Assembly: GCF_001029285.1 (NCBI RefSeq)
Contig: NZ_LDZY01000004.1
Location: 186,001-250,000, forward strand
Origin: Desulfosporosinus acididurans
GTDB taxonomy: Bacteria; Bacillota; Desulfitobacteriia; Desulfitobacteriales; Desulfitobacteriaceae
Length of the DNA stretch: 64,000 bases
Reading direction: 5' to 3'
The translations under genes were made by a program, and so were the position numbers. This document shows positions 43,051 to 57,403 of the stretch, piece by piece (the first letter of the stretch is position 1; each line of letters starts with the position of its first letter). Below the pieces are notes generated by a model, which worked only from the letters and a program-made list of their open reading frames with translations, made no database searches and was not told the DNA's origin.

Positions 43051-43174
43051 ATATTGCTTAATGTGCTAGTCCAGTTATCGGGTATCCACGAGTTACAGGG
43101 AGGTGGAAGGGGAGATAAGGTGGAGGCCCTTCCCCAATTTTTGGGACAGCACTCAAAAGGGAGGGAAATTTCTA

Positions 43175-44659
43175 ATGGAAAAACTAGACATTTTTAGGGA
43201 TATCGCAGAACGTACGGGGGGCGATATTTACCTCGGTGTCGTCGGGCCAGTCCGCACAGGTAAGTCCACCTTCATCAAACGTTTCATGGACCTCCTGGTC
43301 CTACCCAACATTCAAGATGCCTTTGAGCGGGAACGGGCTAAAGATGAGCTTCCTCAAAGCGGGACAGGTCGAATGATTACGACGACAGAACCGAAGTTTA
43401 TTCCCTCGGAATCCGTGGAAATCGTCGTCAAAGACTCCATCCATATGAATGTACGTTTAGTGGATTGTGTGGGTTACGGCGTTGAGGGCGCTATAGGTTA
43501 TGAGGCCGAAGATGGAGAAGAACCACGTATGATGAAGACCTCTTGGAGCGATGAACCCATGTCTTTCCAGGAGGCAGCGGAATTAGGCACTCGCAAAGTT
43601 ATTACCGACCATGCGACCATTGGGGTTGTCATTACAACCGATGGTTCGATCACCGATCTTCCTCGGGAAGCTTACTTAGATGCCGAGGAGAGAGTCATCT
43701 ACGAGCTTCGTCAACTTGGAAAACCCTTTGTTGTACTATTGAATACGACTCGTCCTTATGCGGACAATACCATGGAATTATGTCGTGATTTGGAAGAAAA
43801 ATACAGTATTCCGGTTCTCGCAGTGAACTGCTTGGATATGACCCAAGAGGATATCACTCAGATTCTCGAAGAAGTACTTTATGAGTTCCCGGTGGCTGAG
43901 GTTAATATTGATCTGCCGAAATGGGTTGAAGAACTTGAAAGTTCCCATCCGGTACGGTCGGCTTTTGAAGATACCGTCCGCAAAGCTATCGAAGGTGTTC
44001 GCCGCTTGCGGGATATTGATCAAGCTTTGGATGCTTTAGCAGAATGCGAGTATGCTCAAGATGTTCTTTTAAAGGAAATGAACCTAGGTACAGGCGTAGC
44101 CAATATCGAAATGACTGCTGTCGAGGGCCTCTTTAAATCAGTCTTACAGGAGCTTACAGGGCTGGAAATAGAAGGGGATCACTCCTTGCTGCGTATAGTT
44201 CAGGATTACAGCAAAGCTAAGAGGGAATGGGATAAAATGTCCGTCGCCATCGAAGAAGTTCGGGTCAATGGCTATGGCGTTGTAACTCCCCAATTAGAAG
44301 AAATGTTCTTGGAAGAACCTGAACTTGTTAAGCAAGGAGGGCATTATGGCATCAAGCTCAAAGCGAGTGCTCCTTCCCTCCATATCATCAGGGCAGATGT
44401 CACGACTGAAATCACCCCGTTGATTGGTACTGAAAAACAAGCAGAGGAACTGGTGAAATACATTCTCGATGAATTTGAAAGCGATCCTAAAAAGGTTTGG
44501 AGTTCTAATATCTTCGGCAAATCACTGCATGATTTAGTCAGGGAAGGAATCCAAAATAAACTCTACAAGATGCCGGAAAATGCCCAGCACAAACTGCAAG
44601 ATACATTACAGCGGATAGTTAATGATGGCAACGGCGGGCTGATCTGCATCATTATTTAA
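43175..44659 (+). CDS. spoIVA: Stage IV sporulation protein A, spore-coat morphogenetic ATPase
   Basis: Base-layer protein of the spore coat (494 aa, full length; the Bacillus protein is about 492). An ATPase domain with Walker A GPVRTGKST near residue 30 polymerises the protein on the forespore surface. The ending GNGGLICIII matches the membrane-sensing C-terminus. ATG 43175 follows AAAGGGAGGG; the longer frame from 43103 reads through the leader. Confidence 0.97.
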   Translation: MEKLDIFRDIAERTGGDIYLGVVGPVRTGKSTFIKRFMDLLVLPNIQDAFERERAKDELPQSGTGRMITTTEPKFIPSESVEIVVKDSIHMNVRLVDCVGYGVEGAIGYEAEDGEEPRMMKTSWSDEPMSFQEAAELGTRKVITDHATIGVVITTDGSITDLPREAYLDAEERVIYELRQLGKPFVVLLNTTRPYADNTMELCRDLEEKYSIPVLAVNCLDMTQEDITQILEEVLYEFPVAEVNIDLPKWVEELESSHPVRSAFEDTVRKAIEGVRRLRDIDQALDALAECEYAQDVLLKEMNLGTGVANIEMTAVEGLFKSVLQELTGLEIEGDHSLLRIVQDYSKAKREWDKMSVAIEEVRVNGYGVVTPQLEEMFLEEPELVKQGGHYGIKLKASAPSLHIIRADVTTEITPLIGTEKQAEELVKYILDEFESDPKKVWSSNIFGKSLHDLVREGIQNKLYKMPENAQHKLQDTLQRIVNDGNGGLICIII

Positions 44660-45707: not shown

Positions 45708-46817
45708 TTAATTGATTTCCTGTTGTTGGAGTTCTATAATTTTTTTGTTAATTGTTTCTTTCTTTTGAACTCCAAGATGTTGATATATCGCTTTTAAAAC
45801 CTTAATATCGTGTCCCAGTCGCTCGGCTGCTAAATGATCTAGTACATCATTTTCATAAAGCCAAGTGGCATGATAATGCCGGAGGAAGTGCAATCTTGTC
45901 TTCGGTATTTTTTTGTCTTTTACGAGTTTGGCTAGATAACTGGTATAGGAATCTGGACGCATCGGAAAGATAAGCTTTTCTTCCTTGTTTTTTATCTCAG
46001 TGATTTCAATAACTTTTCGCTCTTTCTTGGTGAGCGTAAACCCATTCTTAATTACATCGTTTATCAGATTCATAAGATAAGGGGGGGCGGCAACGGTTCT
46101 AAGTCCATTTTCTGACTTAGTAGTTTTAATTTCATATTTACCTTGATCATTAATGACATATGCTTCATCAATTCTGATCGTACAATTATCGAAATTCAAG
46201 TCGTTAGGTTTTAGCGCGAATATCTCTTCACGTCTCAATCCACACCAACCGGCTAGAAGAATAATTGGTTCATCTCTGGTACCCTTGACTGCGCTATGGA
46301 TCGCTCGGAATTTTTCAGTTGTTGGGACATCAGAATAATCAACTTTTTCCTCCTTTGGCAACTTGACGTCTTTCATTGGATTTCGATTCTTTAGCGCATC
46401 GTATAATATTGGCCTTAAACAAGACATTACTCTTCGTGCGCTAGTGGAAGACATTTTTCCCAGGAGTTCGTTTTGCAATTTTTTGATGTGAATTTCTCTC
46501 AGATCCTTGAATTTCATTTGCTTAAAGAACGGGCGAAAATGATTTTTCAAATATCCCTTATACAAAACAATAACGCTTGGGCTATATTGCTTGTTATGGA
46601 TATCGATCCAATTTTTAATCCATTCGGCAATTCTAATGTTATCAACTTGAGATAATGACCCATCAATTAATTGCTGCTCAATCTCCCTGGCTGCGGCCTT
46701 GCATTCTTTCATCGTGGACTTAGTAACGTACTTGAAAAGTTGCTTGCCATCATCATCCCTTCCCACATAGATTGTAGCCTGATACGATCCGTTTGGGCGT
46801 TTTTTTATGCTTGCCAT
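45708..46817 (-). CDS. int: Tyrosine-type phage integrase
   Basis: Site-specific recombinase (369 aa) expected to insert the prophage into tRNA-Pro. An arm-binding AP2-like domain covers about 1-53, then a SAM-like core-binding domain (60-145) and the catalytic domain. Catalytic residues are Arg195 (GLRREE), His310 and Arg313 (HFLRH), His336 (LGHD) and nucleophile Tyr345. It starts right after the stop of a small gene that copies its first domain. Confidence 0.95.
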   Translation of the reverse strand: MASIKKRPNGSYQATIYVGRDDDGKQLFKYVTKSTMKECKAAAREIEQQLIDGSLSQVDNIRIAEWIKNWIDIHNKQYSPSVIVLYKGYLKNHFRPFFKQMKFKDLREIHIKKLQNELLGKMSSTSARRVMSCLRPILYDALKNRNPMKDVKLPKEEKVDYSDVPTTEKFRAIHSAVKGTRDEPIILLAGWCGLRREEIFALKPNDLNFDNCTIRIDEAYVINDQGKYEIKTTKSENGLRTVAAPPYLMNLINDVIKNGFTLTKKERKVIEITEIKNKEEKLIFPMRPDSYTSYLAKLVKDKKIPKTRLHFLRHYHATWLYENDVLDHLAAERLGHDIKVLKAIYQHLGVQKKETINKKIIELQQQEIN

Positions 46818-46980: not shown

Positions 46981-47619
46981 TTATCTCACCTCCGATTGAA
47001 AACGAATTGCCTTACCCAATATAGAAACATCCTTCATATCCCTTTTGGAATATACTTGTTCGGGATAATTCGGATTCTCGGGTCGAAGTATTATACTGCT
47101 ATTGATCTTATAGACTCGCTTAAGAGTTGCTTCTCCATCTATCATCACGGCAGCAATCTCGCCCGTTTCAACTTCCGATTGCTGCCTAATAAAAACAATA
47201 TCTCCGTCCAAGATCCTTGCCCCCGTCATACTATCGCCTTTAACACGAAGGCAAAAATCAACATTAATGTCTTCTGGAACGAATTCAAATCCTTCGATAT
47301 TTTGTTGAGCTAAAATTGGTATTCCTGCAGCTATAGTTCCAACCAAAGGGACACGTTTAAATGTCCTGGTTGACTTGTCAGTTTCCAAGTATTTATCTAC
47401 ATCACATCCCATTAACCAAGTTGGGTTAACCCTGTATTTTGTGGATATAGCATCAATGGTAAGAATCTTAGGTTTCATACTTCCTGATGTATATCGACTA
47501 ATGGCACTTGGACTAAGGTGTAAATACTCGGCTAGACTGTATATTGTGTCGTTATTTTCGGTCATTAGCTTTATCAATCGCTCCGCAAATTTCTCTTGAT
47601 CGAAGGCCTTGTTATTCAT
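46981..47619 (-). CDS. LexA/CI-type self-cleaving prophage repressor
   Basis: A 212-residue repressor. An HTH domain (about 10-68, YSLAEYLHLSPSAISRYTSG) is followed by an S24 peptidase domain with cleavage site Ala98-Gly99, nucleophile Ser130 (KGDSMTGA) and Lys167 (ATLKRVY). DNA damage with RecA should trigger self-cleavage and induction. ATG 47619 follows GGGGAG; the longer frame would cross its own promoter. The repressor probably binds the GTTGA-N5-TCAAC sites. Confidence 0.93.
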   Translation of the reverse strand: MNNKAFDQEKFAERLIKLMTENNDTIYSLAEYLHLSPSAISRYTSGSMKPKILTIDAISTKYRVNPTWLMGCDVDKYLETDKSTRTFKRVPLVGTIAAGIPILAQQNIEGFEFVPEDINVDFCLRVKGDSMTGARILDGDIVFIRQQSEVETGEIAAVMIDGEATLKRVYKINSSIILRPENPNYPEQVYSKRDMKDVSILGKAIRFQSEVR

Positions 47620-47657
47620 GACACTCCCCATCCATAATGTTATTTCCTTAACGTACA

Positions 47658-47688
47658 TTATATGCAACTGTGTTGATTTTATCAACAT
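47658..47688 (-). promoter_or_regulatory. Repressor promoter with operator O1
   Basis: On the minus strand -35 TTGATA (47681-47686), 17-base spacer and -10 TATAAT (47658-47663). The dyad TGTTGA-N5-TCAACA (47672-47688) covers the -35, implying autoregulation by the repressor. Confidence 0.8.
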
Positions 47689-47725
47689 TAATATAATATT
47701 TTTTATTATATATATTGATAAAATG

Positions 47726-47755
47726 GTTGACACGCTCAACATAAAGATTTATAGT
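47726..47755 (+). promoter_or_regulatory. Early rightward promoter with operator O2
   Basis: -35 TTGACA (47727-47732), 17-base spacer, -10 TATAGT (47750-47755). The dyad GTTGA-CACGC-TCAAC (47726-47740) overlaps the -35, so a bound repressor would block lytic transcription. Confidence 0.85.
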
Positions 47756-47806
47756 ATTTCCAAGAGGTTGAGTAACTAAACATTATACTCATTAGGGGGT
47801 GAATTT

Positions 47807-48088
47807 ATGACAAAAAAGAAACAACAAAAATATTTGGAATTGTCGGCCCTTAAGGGTTTGATTCGCGAGAAGAAATCCTCATACGATAAACTTAGTACCG
47901 AGTTAGGTATTACAACTAATAATTTCTGCGACAAAATCAATGGGTTTCAATTATTTGATGTAAAAGAAGTAGACACTCTTTCCGATCTACTTGACATTAA
48001 ACAAACTGAATTAAACCGATATTTTTTTCCTCATAAGTTGAGTGGCTCAACATTGAAAGAGTACTTATCAAAGAAAAAAGTTGTGTAA
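47807..48088 (+). CDS. Cro-like phage regulator
   Basis: A 93-residue first gene of the rightward transcript. A helix-turn-helix-like core (SSYDKLSTELGITTNNFCDKI) resembles the DUF739/Cro-type proteins of Firmicute phages. AGGGGGGTGAATTT precedes the ATG. By position it should be the Cro counterpart of the repressor. Operator O3 lies inside its last codons. Confidence 0.75.
   Translation: MTKKKQQKYLELSALKGLIREKKSSYDKLSTELGITTNNFCDKINGFQLFDVKEVDTLSDLLDIKQTELNRYFFPHKLSGSTLKEYLSKKKVV
48037..48052 (+). promoter_or_regulatory. Operator O3 inside the Cro-like gene
   Basis: GTTGA-GTGGC-TCAACA has the same half-sites and 5-base spacing as O1 and O2. It overlaps the 3' end of the Cro-like gene, about 150 bases before the XRE gene, and could act as a distal looping site or block elongation. 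Confidence 0.6.
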
Positions 48089-48199
48089 GTTAACATAGTT
48101 AATGGGATCTGAAACGGTCCAATCTAAGCAAGGCGTTTAGGTTTATCGAGAGTAGGAGAACAGGTAGTTTGCGAAAACCTTGGTATTCCATTAAGGGAG

Positions 48200-48583
48200 G
48201 TGGAAACTATAAAAGCAAATGATTTTCGAATTGACCTTGGAAAGCGCTTAAGAGGTCTTAGATTAGCAAAGGGTTTAAAACAAGATGAGTTGGCTGAGAA
48301 AATCAGTATTGCGCGTGGTTCTATCGGTAACTATGAGACCGGGGCGCGTACTCCGGATGCAGAAATATTACTGAAATTTGCAGACTTCTTTGATGTTTCA
48401 GCAGACTATCTTTTAGGTATAAGAGAGGATCAGAAAGAACGGGAGTTTGACAAACGATTATCATCTTTAGAAAAAGAAATAGCCGAACTGAAAGGGCAAG
48501 TTTCAGTTCGGCATGAAGCTGACATTGATGAGTTAATCAAAAATATTACCGCTAAAATTAACCGGTCTACTCAACAACTTTAA
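48200..48583 (+). CDS. XRE-family HTH regulator
   Basis: A 127-residue protein with an N-terminal XRE domain (about 10-70, LGKRLRGLRLAKGLKQDELAEKI and GNYETGARTPD) and a helical C-terminus with coiled-coil character (LSSLEKEIAELKGQV). The GTG start abuts GGGAG, so initiation may be weak or at an unusual codon a few bases on. The 3' end overlaps the convergent small gene by 17 bases. Confidence 0.85.
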   Translation: METIKANDFRIDLGKRLRGLRLAKGLKQDELAEKISIARGSIGNYETGARTPDAEILLKFADFFDVSADYLLGIREDQKEREFDKRLSSLEKEIAELKGQVSVRHEADIDELIKNITAKINRSTQQL

Positions 48584-48764
48584 GATTTTTAAGTTCTTCC
48601 CAAATTAATCTGTTATTTTCCTCCAAAAAGTCACGACATACATTAGAGGCTATTAAAGCTATTGAATTAACCATATTTTGTGGGCCGGTTTCTTCTCCAA
48701 CATTTTGACGTACCTTAGCTAAAATCGATTCCTGAACATCCTTGAGGTTGATATCAAATCCCAT
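48567..48764 (-). CDS. Small phage protein of unknown function, antisense orientation
   Basis: A 65-residue, mostly helical acidic protein; no family recognised. ATG 48764 is chosen because AGGAGGTG lies 6 bases upstream; the longer frame has no site. It is the only leftward gene after the early promoter and is convergent with the XRE gene, which it overlaps by 17 bases, so the two transcripts may interfere. Confidence 0.65.
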   Translation of the reverse strand: MGFDINLKDVQESILAKVRQNVGEETGPQNMVNSIALIASNVCRDFLEENNRLIWEELKNLKVVE

Positions 48765-48862
48765 ATCTAACACCTCCTCTCTTCTGAATTTGGAAGTCTG
48801 GACAACAACCATTTCGACATAAGGGTGGAGAATCCTGTAAATATTTTCAAGGAGGTGATGCC

Positions 48863-48976
48863 ATGTCATACACGATCATCCAGAAGCGGGGCTACGTCGA
48901 ACTCTGGATTGATGGAGAATTTGCCGGGTGTTTTGACTCCGAGGAAGAGGCAAAAGCGGAACTAAACGTGGCATGA
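48863..48976 (+). CDS. Tiny phage protein (37 aa)
   Basis: Frame of 37 codons with a strong ribosome site (AAGGAGGTGATGCC). The sequence is compact and beta-like (YTIIQKRGYVELWIDGEF, then an acidic helix). Probably a real small early protein; no family assigned. Confidence 0.6.
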   Translation: MSYTIIQKRGYVELWIDGEFAGCFDSEEEAKAELNVA

Positions 48977-48992
48977 GAAAGGGGCGAGATTA

Positions 48993-49181
48993 TTGCTAAG
49001 AACAATACTTGAATCAACCCTGGGAACTCTAACCGACTCGGAATTCCGTCTTATCCTTGAACTAGCGTCCTCTGACATAAGAATCAACCGCTCCATCTTT
49101 GGCAAGAGGACAAGCCTTCGTGAAGCGGTTGATATCGCGGAGCGGTGTTATTTAGCCCTCCAGAGAGGAAAAATCGCTTGA
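48993..49181 (+). CDS. Small phage protein
   Basis: A 62-residue helical protein with TTG start after AAAGGGGCGAG. No cysteines or membrane segment, no recognised family. It follows the preceding mini-gene by 16 bases in the rightward early transcript. Confidence 0.55.
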   Translation: MLRTILESTLGTLTDSEFRLILELASSDIRINRSIFGKRTSLREAVDIAERCYLALQRGKIA

Positions 49182-49238
49182 TACCTTCTTGATTCAAGGA
49201 CATATCAATGTTTACACCCTAACGAGGGAGGTGAAGTC

Positions 49239-49376
49239 ATGAAAACGCTCCGCCAATTACTCCTTAGGTCCGACCGCATTAAACGCATAGTTTCCGATTA
49301 TCAATGGAGGAAAAAGAAGCAGCGGCATCATCAACGCTGGCAGATGTTATTGCGTTCTGGCGGCAGGCTGCGGTAG
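49239..49376 (+). CDS. Small basic phage protein (45 aa)
   Basis: A 45-residue, very basic protein (LLRSDRIKRIVSDYQWRKKK, then RHHQRW) with an excellent site GAGGGAGGTGAAG before the ATG. It could bind nucleic acid. Its last 70 bases overlap another frame (49304-49462). Confidence 0.55.
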   Translation: MKTLRQLLLRSDRIKRIVSDYQWRKKKQRHHQRWQMLLRSGGRLR

Positions 49377-49462
49377 AAAGGAATGAGCGCTTTGACCAAT
49401 ACCCTGCATCGCTTTTCCGGAAAATAAAAAAGAGCCGTAAAACGGCTCCACAAGAAAATTAA
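49304..49462 (+). CDS. Overlapping small phage ORF (52 aa)
   Basis: A 52-codon frame overlapping the 45-aa gene in another phase. The predicted product is helical (AASSTLADVIAFWRQAAVER) and reads like protein, but there is no clear ribosome site. It may be translated by coupling to the upstream gene. Low confidence. Confidence 0.35.
   Translation: MEEKEAAASSTLADVIAFWRQAAVERNERFDQYPASLFRKIKKSRKTAPQEN
49421..49448 (-). terminator. Leftward intrinsic terminator inside early region
   Basis: GAGCCGT (49432-49438) pairs with ACGGCTC (49442-49448). Read leftwards it runs into TTTTTTATTTT; rightwards there is no T-run. No leftward gene is seen to its right, so it may stop antisense transcription. 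Confidence 0.7.
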
Positions 49463-49592
49463 TCAAGACTATTGTACCTTTTATTCTCCCCAGTGACAAG
49501 AAAGGGGTTGAAAAGAGTTGTATGCGCTTTCCTGCACAGAAACTGTAAGACTAAACTATTATGCCCTTGTAGTTTCTATCTTCGGAAACTGT

Positions 49593-49790
49593 ATGCCGGA
49601 AACAGCTTTCGAAAAAATTCAAAGCGACAGGCCAAGTAAAGTTCGCAATAAGATTACTGATGATGACATTCAAGATATGGCAAAACTTCGAGAGAAAGGA
49701 TTATCTCTTAAGGACATCGGCGAGATCTATGGCATAGACCAAACGGTTATCTGCCGGAAATTAAAGGCGATTGCTACGCAGGGAGTGTGA
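49593..49790 (+). CDS. HTH domain phage protein
   Basis: A 65-residue protein whose C-terminal part is a resolvase-like helix-turn-helix (DDIQDMAKLREKGLSLKDIG, then IDQTVICRKL). ATG 49593 has only a weak site (CGGAAA); an alternative TTG at 49518 follows AAAGGGG but adds a non-conserved-looking stretch. Its stop overlaps the region before the next gene. Likely DNA-binding. Confidence 0.6.
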   Translation: MPETAFEKIQSDRPSKVRNKITDDDIQDMAKLREKGLSLKDIGEIYGIDQTVICRKLKAIATQGV

Positions 49791-49795
49791 TTCTT

Positions 49796-50056
49796 ATGTT
49801 AATCCCAACCTGTGTGTGCGGTAGAGCCATGGAATTCGAACCTGGTAAAACAAGGTCATTTTGTAAGGCTCCTGGCTGCGGTGTGGTTCTCGAAAAATGC
49901 CCAGAGGGATATTGGGCTTACGGAAAAACCAGACTTGCCTTCACTCCTATTTTGCCGAAACTAAAAGTGAAAAAAGGGGTTAAATCTAGGGCTGAAAAGT
50001 ATCGCAATTATCCTAAGAGTCGACGGAAGAAAAAGGGTCATTCAAGACATAAATAA
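49796..50056 (+). CDS. Small zinc-ribbon phage protein
   Basis: An 86-residue protein with two cysteine pairs (PTCVCGRAM, then SFCKAPGCGVVLEKC), a likely zinc ribbon, and a very basic C-terminus (KSRRKKKGHSRHK). GGGAGTG precedes ATG 49796. Possibly nucleic-acid binding; no family assigned. Confidence 0.6.
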   Translation: MLIPTCVCGRAMEFEPGKTRSFCKAPGCGVVLEKCPEGYWAYGKTRLAFTPILPKLKVKKGVKSRAEKYRNYPKSRRKKKGHSRHK

Positions 50057-50097
50057 TTTCCTCAAACCCAAAATTAAAAATGGAAAGAAGGATTTTT

Positions 50098-51042
50098 ATG
50101 AACACGACTGTAATTTTCGATAACTCCGGAAAACCGGGTATGATGGTGCGAGTGCCAAAGTTTAAATATTCTGATGTTATTTCTGGAGGCAGAGAAGTTA
50201 CCTGTTCGGCATTTATTATCGATGGGGTTGAAGTGCCGGAGATCTTCATTTCAAAATTCCAGAACATTATCGTAAACGGCAAAGCGTATAGCCTACCCTT
50301 TCAGAAACCAACTGTCAGCTTAACCTTTGATCAAGCCAAGGAGGCCTGTGAGTCTAAGGGCAAAGGATGGCACCTTATAACAAATGCCGAATGGGCTGCG
50401 ATCGCATTGTGGTGCAAGAAAAACGGTACGCTTCCTCGCGGCAACAATTACGGAGGATCGGATTATTCCCATCGAGACGAGAAAGGCATTTGCTTTGACG
50501 ATTGTAAGGTTCTCACAGGGAGCGGCCCAGATACTTGGTCCCATGACCACACACCGGATGGAATCTTTGACCTGAACGGAAACGTCTGGGAATGGGTCGG
50601 TGGCTTAAGGCTTTTAGACGGTGAAATCCAAATAATACCTGACAACAATGCCGCCAAACATATAGACCAGTCGAAAACGAGCCATGAATGGCAGCCTATA
50701 AAAGTAGATGGAAAAACGTTTAAATACACCGAGGATGAAAACGGATTAAAGGTCACCACAGAAAAACCAGAGGGCTGGAATGGATGCAAGTTTTCCAACC
50801 TGGGAGCAGATGTTGAAATACCGGATGTATTAAAGGAACTTGCTTTGTACCCCTCGGACAACGCTGACCTGACAGAATATATCTTCGCCGATGCCGATGG
50901 CGAACGCCTCCCGTATCGTGGCGGCAACTGGGGCTACGGCTCCAGCGCTGGCGTGTTCTCTTTGTTCCTGTACAACCCCCGGTCGATCGTGAACACGAAC
51001 ATCGGGTTTCGCTCCGCTTTTGTCCAGATCCCTGAAATCTAA
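50098..51042 (+). CDS. C-type-lectin/FGE-fold protein, putative DGR variable protein
   Basis: A 314-residue protein of the formylglycine-generating-enzyme (SUMF1-like) C-type-lectin fold, without signs of oxidase activity. Core motifs are LTFDQAKEACESKGKGWHL, NAEWAAIALW and DGIFDLNGNVWEWVGG. The last 45 residues (RGGNWGYGSSAGVF..., NIGFRSAF) match the variable region of diversity-generating-retroelement targets. ATG 50098 follows AAGAAGGA. Such proteins display variable ligand-binding surfaces. Here it lies in the early region, not next to tail genes, and no reverse transcriptase is in view. Confidence 0.8.
   Translation: MNTTVIFDNSGKPGMMVRVPKFKYSDVISGGREVTCSAFIIDGVEVPEIFISKFQNIIVNGKAYSLPFQKPTVSLTFDQAKEACESKGKGWHLITNAEWAAIALWCKKNGTLPRGNNYGGSDYSHRDEKGICFDDCKVLTGSGPDTWSHDHTPDGIFDLNGNVWEWVGGLRLLDGEIQIIPDNNAAKHIDQSKTSHEWQPIKVDGKTFKYTEDENGLKVTTEKPEGWNGCKFSNLGADVEIPDVLKELALYPSDNADLTEYIFADADGERLPYRGGNWGYGSSAGVFSLFLYNPRSIVNTNIGFRSAFVQIPEI
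50906..51021 (+). other. Putative DGR variable repeat (VR)
   Basis: Hand count of 50901-51020 gives 73 G or C in 120, far above the surrounding AT-rich gene. Variable-looking codons end in C and fit AAC with changed first or second bases (GGC, TAC, TTC, ATC, AGC, TCC), whereas framework codons (GCT GGC GTG TTC, CCC CGG TCG, ATC GGG TTT CGC) look fixed. This is the expected product of adenine-specific mutagenesis from a template repeat. The template repeat was not found in the window. Confidence 0.7.
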
Positions 51043-51059
51043 TAACCTGTAATCTGATG

Positions 51060-51077
51060 GGCGCTCGATAGAGCGCC
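51060..51077 (+). other. Hairpin after the VR, possible DGR target hairpin
   Basis: GGCGCTC-GATA-GAGCGCC: perfect 7-bp GC-rich stem (8 with a G-T pair), 4-base loop, 17 bases after the stop codon. Bordetella phage DGRs need a similar short hairpin/cruciform just past the VR for efficient homing. There is no T-run, so a terminator is less likely. Confidence 0.6.
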
Positions 51078-51112
51078 TTACTCTAAAAGTTCTTAAACGG
51101 AGGTCGAGTTAC

Positions 51113-51286
51113 ATGGAGGAAAGTATTCATCCTCCCCTCTATCACGAATTGAGAAAGTGGGCAATTGAAGAAATGCGATCAGGAAACGAGGAGAAAGCTT
51201 TTAGAATCGCTGACGCAAGTCTTCTTGTAAGCCTTCGTTATTGGAAGTGGCTTGGTAGCCGAGGGAGGCGGAGAAGAAATGGCTAA
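51113..51286 (+). CDS. Small phage protein (57 aa)
   Basis: A 57-residue protein with helical body (YHELRKWAIEEMRSG, then AFRIADASLLVSLRYWKWLG) and basic end. ACGGAGGTCGAG precedes the ATG. It overlaps the next start by 8 bases, implying coupling. In DGR cassettes a small accessory gene (Avd) often follows the target, but Avd is larger (about 120 aa) so this is not called one. Confidence 0.6.
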   Translation: MEESIHPPLYHELRKWAIEEMRSGNEEKAFRIADASLLVSLRYWKWLGSRGRRRRNG

Positions 51287-52226
51287 GACAAGTATTGAAT
51301 GGACGGATACTGTTTGGAACCCGGTTACGGGCTGCACCAAAGTATCTGAAGGTTGCCGTAATTGTTACGCCGAGAGAATGAGCAAACGTCTAGCCGGGCG
51401 TTGTGGGTACCCAGCAGATAATCCTTTTAGAGTGGTCCTTCATCCCGAGAAGCTAGATGAACCATCGAAGTGGAAGAAACCCAGAAGAATATTTGTAAAT
51501 TCCATGAGCGATTTGTTTCACGAGGATGTGCCGTTCGAATTTATTAGGGCAGTATGGGCACGAATGGTCACTCTTCCCCAACATACCTTTATGATTTTGA
51601 CTAAAAGGCCTGAAAGAATGTTGGAGTTCTTTATTTGGATGGATAGTCAGGAATTTAGGGTTGAAACATTTCGTTCCAATGTCTGGCTTGGTGTTTCGGC
51701 AGAGAACCAAGGTGCAGCGAATAAAAGAATTCCTCTTCTACTACGGGCTCCCGTACTTGTTAGGTTTGTTAGCTGTGAACCATTATTAGGACCGATTAAT
51801 TTGGAACGGATAGAACCAATGGGAGTCGATGCCTTCATTCACTCATTATCAGGTACCGTGTCAGTTCCCTTTACCATACTAGATAACAGGCCAAAACTAG
51901 ACTGGGTTATTGCGGGTGGAGAATCAGGTCCTGGAGCGCGACCAATGCATCCTGATTGGGCAAGCGGGCTAAGGGATCAATGCCAAGCAGCTGGCATACC
52001 GTATTTCTTTAAACAATGGGGAGAGTGGAAAACTTTCTATGACCGTGATCAAGATGATCCCGATTGGCAGAACATACCCGAGGAAAAACCAAATATTCGT
52101 CGCTTGAATTTTGCTGGAGGACATGGATTTCACGGAGACAGAGTTGTCTATTTAAAAAAGGTCGGAAAGAAAAAAGCTGGCCGCGAATTAGATGGCCGGA
52201 CGTGGAACGAAATACCCAAACTTTGA
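51279..52226 (+). CDS. DUF5131 (phage Gp37/Gp68) family protein
   Basis: A 315-residue protein with the family's N-terminal cysteine motif C19-x6-C26-x2-C29 in NPVTGCTKVSEGCRNCYAERM-type context. Other family segments are FVNSMSDLFHEDVP, ILTKRPERM, NVWLGVSAENQ and WVIAGGESGPGARP. The cysteines suggest a metal or Fe-S site, but the biochemical activity is unknown. GAGGGAGGCGGAG precedes ATG 51279. Common in phage and mobile elements of Firmicutes. Confidence 0.85.
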   Translation: MAKTSIEWTDTVWNPVTGCTKVSEGCRNCYAERMSKRLAGRCGYPADNPFRVVLHPEKLDEPSKWKKPRRIFVNSMSDLFHEDVPFEFIRAVWARMVTLPQHTFMILTKRPERMLEFFIWMDSQEFRVETFRSNVWLGVSAENQGAANKRIPLLLRAPVLVRFVSCEPLLGPINLERIEPMGVDAFIHSLSGTVSVPFTILDNRPKLDWVIAGGESGPGARPMHPDWASGLRDQCQAAGIPYFFKQWGEWKTFYDRDQDDPDWQNIPEEKPNIRRLNFAGGHGFHGDRVVYLKKVGKKKAGRELDGRTWNEIPKL

Positions 52227-55308: not shown

Positions 55309-56238
55309 ATGGCCAGAGCAAGAAATATAAAACCGAGTTTCTTCGCTAACGATCAACTAGGAGAGCTTCCCCCTCTGGCCCGTCTCCTATTTATAGGATT
55401 ATGGGGATTAGCTGATCGCAGAGGCAAGCTAGAAGATCGACCCAAGCGAATAAAAGCGGAAGTTCTGCCTTATGATGACTGCGATGTCAATGAACTTTTG
55501 AACTTATTAGAACCTGAATTCATAGTCCGTTATACAGTTGATGGTATTTCGTGCATTCAGATCGTAAACTTCTTAAAACATCAGAAACCCCATCCGAAAG
55601 AAGCGGAGTCCAATCTTCCTAATATGCCTGAAGATAACCAAGCCGTAACTAGGTGTGAACAAGCCGCGAAAATAAACGGCAAGGACATACCTAAAAATTT
55701 AGAGACACAAACCAGCAATTTAAATGTTAGTACGAGCCCGGCTGAATCCCTCTTATTGAATGTTGAATCCCCTATCATGAATGATGATTGTTGTTTGCCT
55801 CAAAACGAATCCGCGGACGAGAACAACAACGCCACGGAAAAAAGTGAGAATACAGAGCCAAACGAAGGAAACATGGCCGTAGGAACTAGAGCTCTTATCT
55901 GGGCTGAGAAGAATTGGGGACGTATGCTTTCTCCTGGGGAGTCTAGAGAAATCATGACCTGGTGTGATGAGTTCTCGACTCGAGGTAGCCAGCATCCTGA
56001 TGATTTAGTGGTCGAGGCGCTGAAGCAGTGTGATTATGCTAGCGTCCGCAATATGAAATATCTTCGAGCGGTATTGACGGACTGGAGAGAAGCTGGGGTC
56101 TTATCAGTATCTCAAGTTGAAGCCCGTGAAGCGGAGCGTAAAAGCCAAAAAGAACACAAGCGTAACAAGGATCCGGGGAACATGCCTTCAGGATCGCCAC
56201 GGGTGCCATCAGACAAGTACGAGAAATTTTATTTGTGA
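55309..56238 (+). CDS. DnaD-like phage replication protein
   Basis: A 309-residue protein. The N-terminal winged-helix-like part (MARARNIKPSFFANDQLGEL, LARLLFIGLWGLADRRGKLE) is typical of phage replisome organisers. A low-complexity linker follows and then a DnaD-like helical domain (about 190-270) with YLRAVLTDWREAGV. It would open the phage origin or load helicase. GAGGTG precedes the ATG. No separate helicase loader is seen nearby. Confidence 0.8.
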   Translation: MARARNIKPSFFANDQLGELPPLARLLFIGLWGLADRRGKLEDRPKRIKAEVLPYDDCDVNELLNLLEPEFIVRYTVDGISCIQIVNFLKHQKPHPKEAESNLPNMPEDNQAVTRCEQAAKINGKDIPKNLETQTSNLNVSTSPAESLLLNVESPIMNDDCCLPQNESADENNNATEKSENTEPNEGNMAVGTRALIWAEKNWGRMLSPGESREIMTWCDEFSTRGSQHPDDLVVEALKQCDYASVRNMKYLRAVLTDWREAGVLSVSQVEAREAERKSQKEHKRNKDPGNMPSGSPRVPSDKYEKFYL

Positions 56239-56249
56239 GGTGAAAAACC

Positions 56250-57008
56250 ATGGCCAACCACAAAGGCAGATCTTACGGAACTGTCCTAATCGACAACCTA
56301 GTTCGTGATAAAACCAAAACTGAAGCATCACCGTGTGTTCGCTATTTTGTGGACAAGGACGGAAATCCCATAACCCAACCCGAGGAATATGTTCCTGAAC
56401 GTTCTCCAATTATGAACCACCAAGATTATTGGAAGGCGGCGGAGAGTTTGAAAGGTAATAAAAACGCAGTGATTAATAAGCCAACAAAAGAGCAGTTAGC
56501 AGAAGATATCAAAACCATGGGCAATGAAGAAATTGCCAAAAAGTACAACATGGGTAGATCGACTATCGCGCGTTATCTTTGCGATTATGGACTAAAACGG
56601 GATGAAGAATATCACAAAAACCTCGCAGAGAAGAAAAACGAGGCTGATAATCAATTGGAGCATATTCCTGAGAGTGATTGTGCTAAAGATGGTAAGCGGA
56701 ACGATCATGAGGAAAATTTGGGCGGGCAAAAAGAGATAACATCAGTGACATTCTGCAGGGAATGCGGAGAGCTAATTGTTCCGCCAACAGAAAATTGTTT
56801 ATGCCCGGAATGCTCCAGCGAAAATGCAGCTTTGGATGAAGATGTTAATAAAATTGAAGCTGTTTACGAAAGTTCTGACAACATTGAATCCATGTGGAAG
56901 GTTGTCGAGAGTGACTTGAATATACTTCTTGGATTGTACATGGAGAAGGCCGAGAAAGAGTTTGAGGCGCGAAAAGCTCAGATGTTTGGAGGAGCAAGGT
57001 TGTGTTAA
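56250..57008 (+). CDS. HTH and zinc-ribbon phage protein
   Basis: A 252-residue protein. The middle holds a helix-turn-helix (about 85-120, [20 protein letters not shown], then [13 protein letters not shown]); residues 165-190 form a zinc ribbon (CRECGEL and CLCPECS). The C-terminal 60 residues are helical and acidic. GTGAGGTGAAAAACC precedes the ATG. Probable DNA-binding protein of the replication region; family not recognised. Confidence 0.65.
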
Positions 57009-57403
57009 ACAGAGTCGTATTAATTGGCCGCCTAACGAAAGATCCCGAATTACGATACACTCCATCCGGAGTTGCCGTATCAAATTTTACTCTGGCCATT
57101 GATCGTAATTTTAAAAATTCCCAAGGAGAGCGCGAAACAGATTTTATCCCATGCGTTGCCTATCGGCAGCTTGGAGAGTTGTGTGCGAATCACCTAGCTA
57201 AAGGAAAACTAGCGGCAGTAGACGGTAGGATTCAGATCCGCTCATATACCGCTCAAGACGGACAACGTCGATGGGTGACCGAGGTAATTGCAGAGAACGT
57301 GCGGTTCCTAAGCCCGAAAGAAGGACAAGCGGGTGGGTCAACCACATCGTCTGATTATCCTTATGGACATGAAGTTAATTTAAACGATGATATCCCCTTT
57401 TGA
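57002..57403 (+). CDS. ssb: Single-stranded DNA-binding protein
   Basis: Phage SSB of 133 aa. OB-fold with [22 protein letters not shown] at the N-terminus and the acidic DDIPF C-terminal tip that recruits partner proteins. GTG start overlaps the previous stop, 7 bases after GGAGGAG. Confidence 0.96.

Follow-up and report, generated by a model that had tools for sequence, protein, structure and literature searches.

Phage DGRs are usually understood as tools for altering receptor binding. The DGR gene set of Bordetella phage BPP-1 comprises Avd, a template repeat (TR), and a reverse transcriptase (RT), as in the prophage analyzed here, and the gene for the BPP-1 target, Mtd, adjoins its DGR cassette. 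TaqVP, the target of a Thermus aquaticus prophage DGR, was reported to be monomeric (PMC6328139). About 13% of DGR cassettes have two targets (as cited in PMC10743442). Of the two Quimbyvirus targets, one lies in the structural module and the other lies remotely near nuclease and methyltransferase genes; the authors read the remote target as non-structural and conflict-related (PMC8008677). Virions of the Faecalibacterium phage Lagaffe were reported from A2-165 cultures (PMC5883640), and a 2024 study, in which Lagaffe_CP was not induced, described two variable repeats (VRs) in Lagaffe_CP, with an adenine signal at both and both targets called MTD-like (PMC11792537). The word "early" is absent from the main text of PMC11792537. 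Multi-target DGRs, the two VRs of Lagaffe, and a putative non-structural remote target in Quimbyvirus are already published. In searches of PMC, in which few subscription journals are covered, we saw no description of a leaderless early-region clade of DGR targets.

Here, we analyzed a 64-kb stretch of DNA (the window; C4:186001-250000 of a 4.64-Mb genome) holding part of a prophage that appears to rewrite two different binding proteins with one mutation machine, one encoded near structural genes and the other, VP1, in the early control region. The features around VP1 are as follows, in window coordinates:

45708..46817, minus strand: ORF that we take from its sequence to be integrase-like; the IMG/VR contig of the prophage starts here
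46981..47742, minus strand: CI-type repressor (HTH_3 and Peptidase_S24)
47727..47755, plus strand: PR-like sigma-70 promoter match, TTGACA-17-TATAGT, 11/12, a consensus match only
48200..48583, plus strand: HTH_3 regulator, upstream of VP1
50098..51042, plus strand: VP1, 314 aa, DGR variable protein of the early region with a TaqVP-like C-type lectin (FGE) fold and no N-terminal leader
50908..51020, plus strand: 113-bp variable repeat VR1; mismatched to the TR at 10 positions, 10/10 of them template adenines
51060..51077, plus strand: DGR-type hairpin, 7-bp stem GGCGCTC/GAGCGCC, loop GATA (fits GRNA)
51252..52226, plus strand: DUF5131 protein, encoded 3' of VP1, with matches to the PADLOC candidate-defence models PDC-M41B and PDC-M30B
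55309..56238, plus strand: replication protein (DnaB_2)
57002..57403, plus strand: single-strand binding protein (SSB)

VP1 starts at the ATG at 50098, with a ribosome-binding site (AGAAGG) ending 6 bases upstream, and stops at the TAA at 51040-51042. The gene is located downstream of the repressor and the PR-like promoter match and before the replication genes (the order after VP1 is DUF5131, PcfJ, DUF3102, DnaB_2, and SSB), which agrees with the early location, away from tail genes, proposed in a preliminary description of this DNA. A divergent minus-strand promoter match (47685-47657) faces away from the PR-like match. Promoter-like sites numbered 15 versus 7.0 in shuffles, and terminator-like sites numbered 4 versus 4.1; four terminator-like sites were detected in 47600-51400, all on the minus strand. 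Just outside the prophage lies a large, GTPase-like ORF (43103-44659), presumably resembling the sporulation protein SpoIVA, which hints that the host is a Bacillota member able to form spores.

The 3' end of VP1 is GC-rich, as previously noted, although our count for 50902-51021 was 72 of 120 bases (60.0%) rather than 73 of 120 (61%); from 45.7 kb onward in the 64-kb window, 4 of 909 sliding windows of 120 bases reach 60% GC. The 7-bp GC hairpin with a 4-base loop was also as described, with stems at 51060-51066 and 51071-51077 and the loop GATA at 51067-51070, 17 bases from the VP1 stop and 39 bases from the end of VR1. An identical 18-base hairpin occurs 3' of a second VR in the prophage (VR2, see below), at C4:273672 and 40 bases from the VR2 end. 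Published DGR hairpins have a GC-rich 7- to 10-bp stem and a GRNA loop, 4 to 34 bp past the VR (PMC3240598). Stem and loop of both hairpins match this type, and their spacing of 39 and 40 bases is slightly longer. A strict scan (perfect 7- to 10-bp stem, GRNA loop) was positive 3' of the window VP1 and of two related early targets, L022 and L161, and negative after the other early targets scanned (e.g., L019, L021, L023, L110, L111, L114, L127, and L141); the hairpin is thus no constant mark of early targets. VP1 and the second target, VP2, each match one PHROG of unknown function and one tail-protein PHROG (E 5e-16 and 1e-13, respectively). PADLOC gave no match at E 0.01 for VP1, VP2, or the proteins of L127 and L161, so the candidate identity of VP1 as a known defence gene had no support.

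When the DNA of the VP1 3' end was compared with the whole genome, three strong matches were obtained: VP1 itself, C4:273510-273689 (90%), and C4:274110-274222 (91%). The latter two lie in a DGR cassette with the following features:

C4:272451-273641, plus strand: VP2, second target, 396 aa; VR2 at C4:273519-273631
C4:273730-274071 (L100:7730-8071), plus strand: bAvd, PF22296, E 1e-34
C4:274110-274222, plus strand: template repeat TR, 113 bp
C4:274396-275475, plus strand: reverse transcriptase RT, 359 aa; RVT_1 domain at C4:274606-275259, E 2.5e-20

All four are on the contig and strand of VP1. The RT ORF begins 174 bases after the TR, and its DGR type was judged from the cassette. A virion structural protein (phrog_1394) and a DUF4815 protein are encoded upstream of VP2. 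TR and RT are 24 kb beyond the right edge of the window, and 37.1 kb separate the VR1 end from the TR. Since VP1, VP2, and RT are all contained in one IMG/VR contig (IMGVR_UViG_2651869844_000001; 55,038 bp), they are members of one predicted prophage. As had been observed before, the window itself holds neither an RT nor a template repeat: a genome-wide RVT_1 search gave no match within C4:186001-250000, and when the TR was used as a pattern with A as N, exactly three matches were found in the genome, of which VR1 is the only one in the window (reversed control pattern, 0). This absence is a window-edge effect, the cassette lying just past the right edge, and an orphan VR without an RT is ruled out. 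The near copy differing only at adenines and the RT, for which the preliminary description had proposed a genome-wide search, were thus both found. Its view of VP1 as a remote target diversified in trans holds as to trans; the cassette, though, is in the same prophage, 37 kb away. Further reverse transcriptase matches occur in the same genome at G000:C28:2361-3938 and G000:C16:8566-9399.

Between VR1 and the TR, 10 of 113 positions are mismatched, and every one of the 10 is a TR adenine (25 of 113 bases are A; chance probability, 5e-8); for VR2, the mismatches number 8 of 113, again all at TR adenines (2e-6). These adenine-only mismatches rule out chance similarity between VR1 and TR and, together with the TR, RT, and bAvd, confirm the first reading of VP1 as a DGR-type variable protein with its repeat. 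The changes fall in template codons AAC and AAT and, in VR2, also in one ATC. In VR1, AAC is changed to GGC, TAC, AGC, TTC, TAC, and ATC, and AAT is changed to TCT; the earlier derivation of variable codons from AAC is therefore right for GGC, TAC, TTC, ATC, and AGC, while TCC, listed with them, is fixed framework. The bodies of VP1 and VP2 share 51% nucleotide identity, and 32% at third codon positions, versus 100% identity at the third codon positions of the VR (36 codons). In three other phages, VP1-type and VP2-type genes have third-position identities of 0.40, 0.45, and 0.39 in the body and 1.00 in the VR. Third positions that diverge in the bodies and are fully identical in the VR, in four of four phages, indicate that the VR was rewritten from a common TR after the two genes diverged. 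Copying from one template produces this pattern, which shared descent by itself would not. Judged from these sequence comparisons, VP1 is a second, trans target of the prophage DGR, with a real adenine-mutagenized VR. At the five adenine sites altered in both VRs of the window prophage, the same base is present in all five (expected, 2.1), including AACAAC to GGCTAC. Over nine phages, same-base sharing between VR1-type and VR2-type repeats was 27 of 62 doubly altered sites against a summed expectation of about 22, so the two repeats look like largely independent copies.

The AlphaFold model of VP1 (mean pLDDT, 94.2) is a single domain whose best structural match is TaqVP (5VF4; TM 0.93, E 1.2e-37, 36% identity). 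In a phmmer comparison with PDB sequences, VP1 matched TaqVP alone (E 1.8e-54), from chain residue 26 onward. The VP2 model has an N-terminal extension of two helices (residues 10-31 and 37-51; block pLDDT 82-98). The VP1 model opens directly in a strand (E2-7) at the domain start, and inspection by eye reveals neither a signal peptide nor a membrane segment.

To place VP1 among its relatives, we used loci on viral and genome contigs that were selected for their similarity to VP1, A2, Lagaffe gp40, L161, and L114 (at least 80 loci in each of two collections; these counts give no share of early targets among all DGR phages). A template was available for 11 phages or prophages, window included, and 133 of their 143 early-type VR mismatches over 110 bases fall at template adenines: window, 10/10; L022, 9/9; L110, 12/12; L111, 10/10; L114, 13/13; L127, 15/18; L161, 13/13; L141, 17/18; Lagaffe gp40, 11/15; L214, 14/16; and L216, 9/9. 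The 10 non-adenine mismatches (three in L127, one in L141, four in Lagaffe, and two in L214) include several at the 5' edge. The count left out L223, L221, L210, L019, and L023, the last being identical to L111 over 10,948 bases, and no template partner was found for L220, L155, L162, or L019 in the DNA tested. The second published VR of Lagaffe_CP is, we infer, that of gp40. Gp40 and L210 (94% identical DNA) differ at 46 of 1,143 body positions; in the VR, 17 of 25 template-adenine positions differ versus 0 of 80 others, the clustering at TR adenines for which the preliminary description had proposed a test among related prophages. By this comparison, diversification is active in these two relatives of VP1. 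L161 differs from L219, L223, L162, and L220 at 12 to 14 of 21 adenine sites and at 6 to 14 of 83 other VR sites; such non-adenine differences are expected if the templates of these relatives, none of which was found, themselves differ.

In eight cases on one contig (window, L022, L110, L114, L127, L161, L214, and L216), about 23 to 40 kb separate the early gene from the TR or RT. The Lagaffe record begins at the terminase, and there gp40 follows the TR by 9.5 kb. In the L114 genome, early gene and cassette are on opposite strands. Judged by record titles, the named hosts are Bacillota (Bacillota, Clostridia, and Lachnospiraceae MAGs, Paenibacillus, Sporofaciens, Faecalibacterium, and "Bacterium D16-51"). 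A search for close copies in the genus, covering 29 genomes with that of the window among them, gave VP1-type matches only in the window's genome and in the incomplete G024 (a 413-aa frame). No RT was detected in 4 of 5 virus records with the closest relatives or, in another scan, in 11 of 14 records; many of these are fragments, and the larger RT-less records are G058 (46 kb) and G061 (40 kb). Several individual loci depart from the general form. The RT of the cassette serving L110 and L113 (G034:C23:133615-134688) has one in-frame TGA; the early target gene at L223:10001-10983, on a metagenomic phage contig, is split into two overlapping ORFs; and in L127, L214, and Lagaffe gp40 a C-terminal extension of roughly at least 100 residues follows the VR, which is thus internal there. 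The TaqVP-family genes L168, L170, and L176, from MAGs without a match to this DGR RT, carry a similar VR motif (RGGRWGQ) and are possibly non-diversified relatives.

Early-region neighbours are also found beside related targets in several other phages. Lagaffe gp40 has a regulator and a transposase before it and exonuclease, Gam, ERF, and SSB genes after it. The early target of L127 stands between LPD15 and ERF plus SSB; that of L114 precedes DUF2800, an ssDNA-binding protein, and DNA polymerase A; and that of L161 precedes a methylase and an exonuclease. An exonuclease and ERF follow in L211, an exonuclease is next in L210, an SSB gene lies about 4 kb past the target in L214, and L155 adjoins an SSB gene. 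In L216, L220, and L221, a minus-strand HTH repressor-type gene is located upstream. The L110 target is found between Mu-type transposase plus AAA genes and an amidase; with this position between MuA/MuB-type genes and the amidase, it may be a middle gene in Mu-like relatives. In Dulem virus 37, a second remote target (L256:29248-30393) with an unrelated N-terminal extension, and hence not leaderless, has 16 of 20 mismatches at template adenines, and its neighbourhood includes genes for an HTH protein, a methyltransferase subunit, and restriction alleviation (Lar).

Early and late targets also differ at the N terminus. We classified 143 distinct proteins (of 156 matches) as cassette-linked (bAvd no more than 1.5 kb or RT no more than 4 kb downstream; 101 proteins), remote (at least 3.5 kb of downstream DNA with neither; 20), or unclassified (22). 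Leader length was defined as the number of residues between the start codon that ranked best by a simple ribosome-binding-site score and an invariant aspartate (the anchor). Of the cassette-linked proteins, 100 of 101 were scoreable, and all 100 have at least 22 residues before the anchor, mostly 22 to 28. Eleven of the 20 remote proteins have 7 to 13 residues and the other nine have at least 22, so remoteness alone is no proof of leader loss; VP1 has seven. In an alignment of 30 proteins, late proteins carry a recurring leader such as FDDMKLAVEALSGG and early proteins carry none. When leader and VR were left out of the tree, 13 rows lacking the leader grouped with L155 on one side of a branch with SH-aLRT 99. 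This tree, made by a quick method, included 71 of 125 eligible rows (15 leaderless, nine other, and seven chosen plus 40 random cassette-linked); rows that were truncated at the 3' end, short, or unclassified were not eligible, apart from those of L019, L141, and L162, and the second remote target of Dulem virus 37, found later, is outside it. No cassette-linked row occurs among the 14 in the clade, four of which (L019, L141, and two of L162) have too little flank for classing. The leaderless remote proteins L168 and L176, whose MAGs had no match to this RT at 1e-10, fall outside the clade; the start of L155, which falls inside it, is uncertain, and neither a template for L155 nor an RT match in its genome was found. 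On one short contig, L162 has two leaderless family members about 1.3 kb apart (anchors 8703, on a long branch, and 10019). Body dN/dS was 0.08, 0.14, and 0.16 in three of six pairs (L019/L110, L022/L023, and L161/L162), values indicating that the bodies of these measurable pairs are under purifying selection. In the three pairs involving the window VP1, synonymous sites are saturated (pN 0.19-0.20 versus pS 0.85-0.86).

Taking these data together, we consider it probable that VP1 is a trans DGR target of a separate, leaderless early clade that acts as an intracellular diversifiable binder, with VP2 as the receptor binder. By established DGR knowledge, the TR RNA would be reverse-transcribed by the RT with bAvd, and the cDNA would home to both VRs. 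The leader would dock the late protein VP2 to the virion, where VP2 would bind receptors, and VP1 would be expressed from the early operon and work in the cell as a diversifiable lectin-fold binder. The early role of VP1 is suggested by its map position, its recurrence in other phages, and the missing leader, and the cytoplasm is the most likely place of action for a protein that has no leader and, by eye, no evident export signal. The main competing reading, which we regard as unlikely, is that VP1 is a second virion adhesin, early for historical reasons and docked by another route, that widens receptor range as VP2 does. VP1 and VP2 do share fold and family, VP1 matches a tail-protein PHROG, and viral DGR targets of several clades are described as mostly tail proteins (PMC8144416). 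However, VP1 lacks two tail-linked marks of the Mtd/TaqVP type: adjacency to structural genes and the cassette, and the leader of at least 22 residues that every scoreable cassette-linked relative has. The absence of cassette-linked rows from its clade (with the flank limit given above for four of them) also speaks against an adhesin, as do the neighbours that could be read, which are regulatory, replication, nuclease, methyltransferase, or SSB genes.

Less probable still is that VP1 is made in the lysogen or early and reaches the surface or medium, where it masks receptors or binds rival phages in superinfection exclusion. This would suit a location in the early or immunity region, and cellular DGRs are described with membrane-anchored diversified targets (PMC8144416), but the model that opens in strand E2-7, with no signal peptide or membrane segment seen by eye, argues against export, and a site downstream of the repressor suggests that VP1 may be off in the lysogen. 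We give very little weight to VP1 as a spare VR or duplication relic that merely stores sequence for exchange with VP2. The five of five shared bases in the window prophage would favor such storage; the low body dN/dS of the three measurable pairs, none of which is the window's own, and the near-expected sharing over nine phages do not, and an archive as the sole role of VP1 was rejected on purifying selection of the body and near-independence of the VRs. That there is no DGR at all, and that VP1 is a C-type lectin gene whose end is GC-rich and whose hairpin arose by chance, is already refuted by the comparison of VR1 with TR and has next to no probability given the TR, RT, bAvd, adenine-only mismatches, and recurrence.

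For the intracellular binder that we favor, the most likely service would be in contests with host defences or with rival phages. Diversification is usually explained by partners that change fast; this consideration, together with the neighbours of the Quimbyvirus and Dulem virus 37 targets and the DUF5131 gene adjoining VP1, points tentatively to counter-defence or inter-phage conflict as the arena of VP1, an assignment to which we give somewhat less than an even chance. In the same way, one template may diversify both a virion receptor binder and a leaderless cytoplasmic early binder directed, antibody-like, against varying host-defence or rival-phage proteins, a suggestion that is rather more likely wrong than right. 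A leaderless early clade whose template is about 23 to 40 kb away implies that phages may diversify a non-tail function too, and the clade lends itself to direct tests of what such a hypervariable protein would do within infected cells.

Among known systems, BPP-1 Mtd resembles VP1 in having a lectin-fold VR mutagenized at adenines and, past the VR, a hairpin with a GRNA loop (PMC3240598). Mtd is a trimeric tail adhesin, whereas VP1 is remote and modelled as a single domain, and the Foldseek match between them is at E of about 3e-4. TaqVP is closer, with the same C-type lectin/FGE fold and a C-terminal VR; unlike the leaderless VP1, 37 kb from its template, it is cassette-linked (PMC6328139). 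The Quimbyvirus DGR resembles that of the window prophage, by description, in having one structural and one remote target, but its remote target is on the opposite strand and its phages are those of Bacteroidetes (PMC8008677). Lagaffe (NC_047911), like the window prophage, has two targets and one template. Its gp40 differs from VP1 in its C-terminal extension past the VR and otherwise matches it in being leaderless, in belonging to the same clade, and in lying beside exonuclease, Gam, ERF, and SSB genes.
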